Assembly: GCA_012735315.1 (NCBI GenBank)
Contig: JAAYHS010000146.1
Span: 1-37,071, forward strand
DNA length: 37,071 bases
Direction of reading: 5' to 3'
Source: Bacillota bacterium
GTDB lineage: Bacteria; Bacillota; UBA4882; UBA8346
Shown here: positions 8,158 to 9,782 of the stretch, in pieces
Layout: each line of letters begins with the position of its first letter
How positions within the stretch are numbered: position 1 is the first letter of the stretch
Translations under genes and position numbers: made by a program
The notes under the pieces: model-generated
Databases searched by the model: none
Seen by the model: the letters and a program-made list of their open reading frames with translations, nothing else
Told to the model about the DNA's origin: nothing

Positions 8158-8943
8158 TCAGACAAGCGCCAGCAAATAGTTTAAAATAAAACCGCCGCCA
8201 ATCGCCAGCATGGTGCTGGCCAGAGTCCCAACCAAATAATACTCCGCGAAATCCCGGTTACTCAATTCATTAAAACGGGCAATTGATTTGGCGGTCAAAA
8301 TGAAGGCGACCGACCCCAAGGCGTCGTTGAGGATCAGCGACAAAACGATCAGCCGTTCCAAGATCCCGATCCATTTACCGGCGCGGTCCGTGTTTTCTCC
8401 GAAAACCGCCTCTTTCTTGCGGATCCAGGCTAAAAACTTGTCAATCAACACCGAGCCTCCGCAACAAATATAAATATAGACGATCGCTCCCATTAATAAC
8501 TTTTCCGGAGCTAATTTAATCGTTCCCTCATCAATTCCGGCGAATGAAGGCAGCGCTTTTACCGCAACCAGACTTTCATAAAACGACAGCACCGCTTGGT
8601 TGGTCTGGAGGTCAATCCGGGACCAAATGATGAAGACGGCGAATAAATGCAATACCTGCTTCATAATAAAAACCGATAAATTCAAACCCCGGTTTGGGAT
8701 TCGACTGAGCAGCGCGGTTAGCAAGTCGATCAAAAGATGGATCCCGGCGACCAAAACCGCGTAACGGATTAGCGTCAACCATTGATAACCATGCAAGAAA
8801 AATATGATGGCGCCGAATAAGATTATCCCATGCCCGAAGATCGCGGTAAGTTTCAAACTAGCTTCGGCGGCGACATTCTTTTTGCTTTGCAATAAAAAAT
8901 CAGCGCTCAAAACGGCCAAAATCGACAACAACAAAGAGTTCAT
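8158..8943 (-). CDS. DUF3307 membrane protein (SatE-like)
   Basis: A 261-residue polytopic membrane protein: about six hydrophobic segments (1-18, 33-50, 55-78, 90-108, 148-166, 195-260). The start (LLLSILAVLSADFLLQ) and the end (KWIGILERLIVLSLILNDALG onward, then FAEYYLVGTLASTMLA) match the DUF3307 family as I remember it. These proteins often sit next to SatD, as here. Function unknown. GGAGGAG lies five to six bases before ATG. Between it and satD are three phased palindromes, so this gene is probably regulated separately from satD. Confidence 0.8.
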   Translation of the reverse strand: MNSLLLSILAVLSADFLLQSKKNVAAEASLKLTAIFGHGIILFGAIIFFLHGYQWLTLIRYAVLVAGIHLLIDLLTALLSRIPNRGLNLSVFIMKQVLHLFAVFIIWSRIDLQTNQAVLSFYESLVAVKALPSFAGIDEGTIKLAPEKLLMGAIVYIYICCGGSVLIDKFLAWIRKKEAVFGENTDRAGKWIGILERLIVLSLILNDALGSVAFILTAKSIARFNELSNRDFAEYYLVGTLASTMLAIGGGFILNYLLALV

Positions 8944-8992
8944 GGCATCTCCTCCGCAACAACGCCGCGACGAATTTTTTTACCGGTTATGC

Positions 8993-9070
8993 TACACCCT
9001 TTTTGGGGTGAAAATTAAATATACACCCGTTTTAAGGTGTATTTATCGATTACACCATTTTTAGGGTGTA
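8993..9070 (-). promoter_or_regulatory. Three palindromes at an exact 29-bp period, likely operator array
   Basis: Copies begin at 8993, 9022 and 9051. Two are TACACC-N8-GGTGTA (20 bp); the third is slightly decayed (TACACCC, then GGGGTGA). Spacers are nine to ten bases of AT-rich sequence. They lie in the 142-base gap between satD and the DUF3307 gene, upstream of the latter. The fixed period of nearly three helical turns fits a DNA-binding protein on repeated sites. No promoter was clearly seen among them. Confidence 0.7.
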
Positions 9071-9085
9071 AAAATGAAATTCATT

Positions 9086-9712
9086 TTAAAATTTATCATT
9101 AACGAACTTTTCTTCCAGTAAAATGGCCAGGTCTTCTTCGACTTTTTTGATAACATCCCATTTAGCCGCCTGGCAGCGTTTCCGAACATTTTGCCAGGCT
9201 ATTTTAAGTTCCCCGGCCGCTTTGACAAAAGTCCGTTGCGTATCATAAGTTTGAATCGCCTCCCATTGAGCCATGGTCCAGCCGCCCGCAATCGTATCAA
9301 CCAGGCTGTAAACCGCATTAAAGATTCGATCAAAAAGCAGATCATCGCTTGCCAAAACAGTCTCGGGGTTTTTGCTTTTTTTGATGGAGTCCAAAGCCCT
9401 CCGGGCCAACACAAAAGACGGCCCGGTCATATCCCACGAATTCGCCCCGGGATCGGGCGTATCAATGGAACCGATCCCGACTCCGATTCTTATTTTTAAG
9501 GGAAGGCAAGCGTAACGTAAATTTCTGATAATCACCGGGAGTAACGGCAGGTTATCGCAGACCGCTTGCAACTCATCCCCTCTGGAAACGCAAAAGGGAG
9601 TATACAGTCCGGAGACTTGAATTTGGCTCAGTTTATCTTTTAATGTTTCCATGATCTCGGGATGTTTTTTGGAGTCAATCACATCTCCGGTAATAACGGC
9701 GAAGAGTTTCAT
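9086..9712 (-). CDS. satD: SatD family protein
   Basis: A 208-residue member of the SatD family (named from the sat operon of Streptococcus mutans; function unknown). Visible elements: strand one with TGDVIDSK (Asp10, Asp13), a helix, a hairpin with SRGDELQ (RGDE at 44-47), then IRIGVGIGSI (74-83). This order resembles the palm fold of GGDEF or class III nucleotide cyclases, but that is inference. Residues about 158-190 (RTFVKAAGELKIAWQNVRKR) look like a helix-turn-helix. AAAGGGG precedes the ATG. It has its own extended -10 promoter and is followed by the palindrome array and the DUF3307 gene. Confidence 0.82.
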   Translation of the reverse strand: MKLFAVITGDVIDSKKHPEIMETLKDKLSQIQVSGLYTPFCVSRGDELQAVCDNLPLLPVIIRNLRYACLPLKIRIGVGIGSIDTPDPGANSWDMTGPSFVLARRALDSIKKSKNPETVLASDDLLFDRIFNAVYSLVDTIAGGWTMAQWEAIQTYDTQRTFVKAAGELKIAWQNVRKRCQAAKWDVIKKVEEDLAILLEEKFVNDKF

Positions 9713-9773: not shown

Positions 9774-9782
9774 AGTATACCA
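9774..9782 (-). promoter_or_regulatory. Extended -10 promoter of satD
   Basis: TGG-TATACT (9782-9774) matches the extended -10 consensus TGnTATAAT; no good -35 is seen. The predicted start is about 55 bases before the satD ATG. Confidence 0.5.

Follow-up and report, generated by a model that had tools for sequence, protein, structure and literature searches.

The palindrome array between satD and the adjoining DUF3307 gene is probably an operator of SatD, which would bind it cooperatively and repress the satD‒DUF3307 unit, with the palm domain of SatD as the likely sensor. The array was found in a stretch of Bacillota DNA of 37,071 nucleotides (hereafter the window), and the genes and predicted sites located below are all on its reverse strand. 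Next to nothing is known about either SatD or DUF3307, although both are widespread. Earlier reports link satD to acid tolerance in S. mutans and describe it as essential in S. pyogenes (PMC11323703), and the literature we searched gave no account of SatD binding DNA, of an operator or of a function for an HTH, in line with the original prediction, which knew of no operator for this family. The gene pair can now be given a concrete and testable mechanism, together with predicted operators in many lineages and the first table relating recognition helices to half-sites.

The palindrome array in the window and beyond

The array lies in the 142-bp gap between satD (208 aa, positions 9086‒9712) and the gene of the DUF3307 membrane protein (261 aa, positions 8158‒8943), the presumed target of the operator. 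A pattern scan of the window confirmed the three palindromes with an exact 29-bp period that had been noticed at 8993, 9022 and 9051. The two predicted operator copies closer to satD, at 9051‒9070 and 9022‒9041, are exact TACACC-N8-GGTGTA, and the third, at 9012 down to 8993, reads TTCACC-N8-GGTGTA on the DUF3307 strand. This last copy was earlier regarded as decayed; the mismatch is real, but the wider subfamily usually has TTCACC as its half-site, so the copy may represent a variant and not decay. The DUF3307 gene has its Shine-Dalgarno sequence, GGAGGA, at 8950‒8955, distinct from the palindromes. With up to two mismatches, TACACC-N8-GGTGTA matches the window five times against 0.53 expected, and five or more matches were reached in 0/100 dinucleotide shuffles. 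In the whole genome (2.95 Mb), the exact sequence occurs twice, both times in the satD‒DUF3307 gap, and the reversed control pattern is absent. Upstream of satD in the same genome there are no array copies; a possible extended −10 element, TGG-TATACT, was read there by eye at 9774‒9782 but is not among the elements listed by a consensus scan. The claim that the array precedes DUF3307 and not satD is therefore correct for this genome but fails as a general rule, since many relatives also carry the array upstream of satD.

The palindromes and the 29-bp step were then looked for in relatives that keep the gene pair. Of 55 loci in the SatD subfamily (from Bacillota and, in three cases, Acidobacteriota; HMM E < 1e-50), 50 carry two to four NTCACC-like palindromes, located upstream of satD in 28 loci, at the satD/DUF3307 junction in 38 and at both places in 16, although these and the other counts are not independent, the loci being kin by descent and many of the Lactobacillales ones close relatives. 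Five subfamily loci (L019, L025, L027, L037 and the truncated L163) have no array by the criterion used. In the 30 nearest relative loci, satD is followed by DUF3307 in every case, and most have two or three NTCACC-N8-GGTGAN-like copies at the junction. Where the junction gap of relatives is only 35‒60 bp, the array is still there, with its copies overrunning the satD stop codon. Across 87 loci, copies are most often 29 bp apart (61 cases); 28 bp occurs five times, 30 bp once and 58 bp (2 × 29) seven times, and no other distance is seen more than three times. In an unbiased scan of the phylum (398 genomes), the exact tandem site adjoins satD in 18 of the 20 genomes having one (Fisher p = 2e-13).

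The same step recurs with other sequences. A sequence-blind scan of the two satD flanks for pairs of similar palindromes, with steps of 22 to 44 bp allowed, returned at a strict threshold steps of 28 and 29 bp only, in 24/55 subfamily, 8/32 distant Bacillota and 14/26 Bacteroidota loci, with shuffles giving at most 0.05. Loosening the threshold raised the loci with a 28‒29 bp step to 41/55, 15/32 and 22/26, respectively (0.10, 0.35 and 0.15 in shuffles), accompanied by isolated single matches at other steps. Control stretches of the same loci gave few matches at 28‒29 bp and no comparable peak. The array types in Bacteroidota are GTTTCA, TATAAG, ACAACC, TATCGG and ATATGC; those of satD on haloarchaeal plasmids are GTTCGG and ACAACC with a 29-bp step; and Sphingomonas and Agrobacterium (Alphaproteobacteria) have a GGGTAA type with a 28-bp step. 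Lactobacillales carry copies of the TGTCTGTTATAATAGACA type at 28-bp steps; most of the 30 Lactobacillales loci, many of them closely related, have an array, with a step of 28 bp in 19 and of 29 bp in three. No array was detected in 17/32 distant Bacillota satD loci, even at looser thresholds, and none was found at the satD loci of Fusobacterium and Arthrobacter. On two haloarchaeal plasmids (L230 and L231), two palindrome pairs of the GTTCGC/GTTCGG type stand upstream of satD, one farther out and the other ending just before the start codon.

Judged from these comparisons of sequence, a putative tandem control site with a lineage-specific palindrome and 28‒29 bp steps accompanies satD‒DUF3307 in archaea as well as in several phyla of bacteria, and the array is far more general than the original prediction could know. 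As for the phasing, the step is kept where the palindrome sequence has fully changed, but successive sites do not share a helical face: the half-sites alternate every ~14/15 bp, and therefore successive dimers would not lie on one face of the helix. A constant geometry of 28‒29 bp combined with free change of sequence, in both bacteria and archaea, is unusual and should be useful for studying the co-evolution of regulators and operators.

It is exceedingly improbable that the repeats are dispersed genomic repeats or products of chance. Single palindromes of this kind can arise randomly, and some database matches are dispersed repeats; however, the exact copies of the genome, only two, are confined to the array, which rules out a dispersed repeat, and chance is ruled out by the window shuffles and the sequence-blind scan. 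The association with satD across the 398 genomes and the retention of the array across phyla and domains likewise speak against both.

DNA sites versus RNA hairpins

The palindromes might alternatively act as RNA hairpins, either controlling the translation of DUF3307 or satD or terminating transcription between the two genes. Many copies do stand directly before a start codon, GGTGA is similar to an extended Shine-Dalgarno sequence, and a terminator-like match spans 9021‒9042. However, terminator-like matches number 1 against 1.3 expected by shuffling, the only Rfam match is sub-threshold and implausible (an animal miRNA family), and the Lactobacillales arrays hold promoter-like sequence. The pattern of substitution bears on the matter more directly, because an RNA stem is expected to covary and independent DNA half-sites are not. 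At the four core arm positions there are 509 Watson–Crick pairs, against 511 ± 2.6 in randomly re-paired arms, and 13 G-U pairs against 12.5 expected. Base preferences are the same in the left and right half-sites, and TTAACC-type variants occur on either side, uncompensated. The lengths of the would-be loop and linker are rigid: CACC-N8-GGTG occurs 81 times and any other spacer length at most three times, and GGTG-N13-CACC occurs 47 times and any other linker length at most three times. The hairpin or terminator reading, ruled out on the grounds of uncompensated core changes, lack of G-U enrichment, rigid lengths and lack of a credible Rfam match, is thus left with a very small probability.

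SatD as the candidate binding protein

The SatD protein of the window is matched by Pfam SatD (PF16264, 'secretion and acid tolerance D') with 65.6 bits against a curated cut-off of 29, sharing the fold and the conserved residues of the family, and is a putative DNA-binding autoregulator. Its AlphaFold2 model (pLDDT 94) falls confidently into two parts, a predicted palm of cyclase/GGDEF-like type at the N-terminus and, fused to it, a set of C-terminal helices that includes a predicted HTH. The palm domain (residues 1‒121, positions 9350‒9712) has the conserved residues D10, S14, G45-D46-E47 and Q49. In an alignment of 119 members, D10, S14, G45-D46 and Q49 are kept in more than 95% and the HTH diverges; among the acidic positions, D10 is conserved in 110/112, D46 in 112/113 and E47 in 101/114. 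In a fold search, the palm resembled class III adenylyl cyclases, the GGDEF domain of PleD, Cas10 and Panoptes mCpol, with E ~2e-4 for the best match (Ma1120), 2e-3 for OptS and TM scores mostly below 0.5; a comparison with viral structures gave no specific match. The confident C-terminal helices comprise residues 147‒159, 162‒169, 173‒182 and 185‒205, of which the second and third, with the motif QNVRKRCQAAKW, make up the predicted helix-turn-helix (residues 160‒185, positions 9158‒9235). The helix-turn-helix-like C-terminus read from the sequence at the outset is thereby borne out by the model, as well as by weak Pfam matches in the C-termini of distant SatDs (HTH_3, Sigma70_r4, HTH_23 and others; E ~1e-2 to 1e-5, near or below the curated cut-offs). 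The C-terminus of the window SatD alone has no HTH match in Pfam.

CdaR/PucR-type regulators have a GGDEF-like fold followed by a C-terminal HTH, as in SatD, and two of them (BAD_0249, 3onq; Rv2242, 9f80) are both in the Foldseek list of SatD. However, the superposition is poor (rmsd ~15 Å, TM at most ~0.31), SatD keeps D10 and GDE, and SatD has no Pfam match to either the HTH or the GGDEF-like domains of CdaR/PucR. SatD resembles class III adenylyl cyclases, GGDEF enzymes, Cas10 and the Panoptes mCpol OptS in the palm-like fold of its N-terminal half and in conserved Asp residues placed like those of a metal site, and OptS likewise has a membrane protein as partner. SatD differs from all of these in its predicted DNA-binding domain and predicted operator, and has no PADLOC match.

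SatD is the simplest binder of the array, given that the palindrome differs from one SatD lineage to another and the geometry does not. With half-sites picked by hand from the arrays, the distance between recognition helices of the HTH correlates with the distance between half-sites (r = 0.54, reached by 0/2000 permutations), and a partial correlation of 0.40 is left given the palm distance. One SatD from Bacteroidota and one from archaea have in common both the half-site ACAACC and the helix motif QQAVSK. In the window's own family, the second base of the half-site is A or G, not T, and the residue following KRC is Q or Y, where it is mostly R or K elsewhere. A link between this residue and the second half-site base is suggestive only, as some lineages with TTCACC or ATCACC also have Q or Y. 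Taken together, the co-variation of protein and site points to SatD as a DNA-binding protein that would control its own gene and that of its membrane partner, which lends support to the core idea of the original prediction, namely that SatD regulates the latter.

The array could instead be the operator of another, unlinked regulator acting on satD‒DUF3307. Such a regulator would account for the TCACC-type tandem sites in a few genomes without detected satD (G074, G044, G307 and those of L101 and L107). Nevertheless, the palindrome is wholly different between lineages while its position and step stay tied to satD, the half-site tracks the HTH of SatD, and many replacements by other regulators with the same 28‒29 bp geometry would be needed. 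We consider an unlinked regulator quite unlikely, and SatD remains the preferred binder.

TCACC-type tandem palindromes at 29 bp where no satD was detected were seen at L048, L059 (with one mismatch), L060/L120, L101 and L107. Their neighbours are unrelated genes, among them an integrative-element-like region, carbohydrate genes and a membrane pyrophosphatase, and some of these sites are perhaps due to chance. Many of the GTDB matches without satD are GC-rich coding sequence, minisatellites or one Chthoniobacteraceae repeat. The last is dispersed in the MAG STA_34 (L073, L076-L078, L094, L095, L100, L102, L104, L115 and L122), with CACCCCGGAAGGGGTG palindromes at a 29-bp step and no satD nearby.

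Proposed mode of action and the membrane partner

In Bacillota with an array upstream of satD, AGGW and GAAW boxes 21 bp apart are present (19/55 loci against 0.9 expected), and in 11 loci the first palindrome starts 4‒6 nt past the GAA. Going by the known consensus, these boxes fit a sigmaH-type promoter. Such AGGW-N17-GAAW boxes are common before satD in the Bacillota group (L026, L036, L068, L079 and others), suggesting a stationary-phase or sporulation-linked expression of satD. In Lactobacillales, TAGACA-17-TATAAT was recognised by eye inside the array. The positions of the arrays relative to the sigmaH-like boxes and in Lactobacillales are typical of repression. Junction arrays, that of the window included, often overlap the satD stop codon and have no obvious promoter; they could possibly act as a roadblock, by looping to an upstream array, or on a weak or hidden promoter within the array.

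We infer SatD binding, cooperativity, repression over activation, and ligand control, and propose the following mechanism. SatD dimers would bind each palindrome via the C-terminal helix-turn-helix, and cooperativity between neighbouring dimers would fix the 28‒29 bp step, the contact presumably running along a spiral given that half-sites alternate every 14 and 15 bp. With the array at the satD promoter, bound SatD would repress the satD‒DUF3307 unit there; with the array at the junction, as in the window, it would repress read-in to DUF3307. The palm domain would be the likely sensor, possibly an enzyme, that sets when repression lifts.

That SatD on the array is instead an activator, or a dual-mode regulator switched by a ligand of the palm domain, is unlikely. 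Ligand-switched regulators often both repress and activate, and no promoter is evident where the junction arrays sit. On the other hand, arrays begin ~4‒6 nt downstream of the sigmaH-like −10 element or contain the −35 and −10 elements, and the essentiality of an accessory satD fits better with the loss of repression. In a meta-analysis of transposon screens in S. pyogenes, satD is highly essential wherever tested although only 178/249 genomes have it, and no other gene is reported there as both accessory and highly essential (PMC11323703). Repression of a harmful neighbour by SatD would explain this combination, and the proposed mechanism thus offers a reason for it. One Streptococcus-like genome (G736) has a broken satD and no DUF3307, and operator-like copies persist between ffh and satD. 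Genus g222 was judged to be Streptococcus-like by its gene orders ylxM–ffh–satD and topA–satD–DUF3307–trmFO, with the genes recognised by eye from sequence.

The DUF3307 protein is matched by PF11750 with 40.1 bits against a curated cut-off of 23. Its model is all-helical, and a fold search in the PDB gave no match. PADLOC, PHROGs and NCBIfam assign no function to the proteins of the pair, PADLOC matching neither. DUF3307 also matched RdrD of RADAR, but only weakly (E 0.059, 13.2 bits; cut-off 230), and this match was set aside.

The pair resembles autoregulated toxin-antitoxin operons in being a two-gene unit with the putative DNA-binding partner first, a predicted tandem palindromic operator and reported essentiality of that partner in genomes that have it. 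However, the toxicity of DUF3307 is putative, and a strict toxin-antitoxin rule is disfavoured because one genus (g305) has DUF3307 without any SatD match, none being adjacent at the inspected locus L271. A tentative reading, which we put forward as a minority possibility, is that SatD and DUF3307 form a two-gene signalling module of bacteria and archaea resembling defence or toxin-antitoxin systems, in which the palm nucleotide enzyme or sensor is itself the operator-binding repressor of a membrane effector and the loss of SatD or of its ligand would free a harmful DUF3307.

In another Lactobacillales genus (g304; L270 and L272), a divergent palm-like protein, recognised by eye and missed by Pfam SatD, precedes DUF3307; the SatD family may accordingly be wider than the current Pfam model. 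Elsewhere in the genome of the window (contig C11, L009:515-563), there is a second, weaker tandem site, TACATC..GGTGCA plus TACACC..GGTGTG with a 29-bp step, upstream of a run of genes for an alcohol dehydrogenase (ADH), an FAD protein and an alkyltransferase-like (ATL) protein. A similar tandem site stands directly upstream of the ATL gene in a sister genome (L200, near 3380), and the tandem site at the ADH–FAD–ATL genes is a possible second target of SatD.
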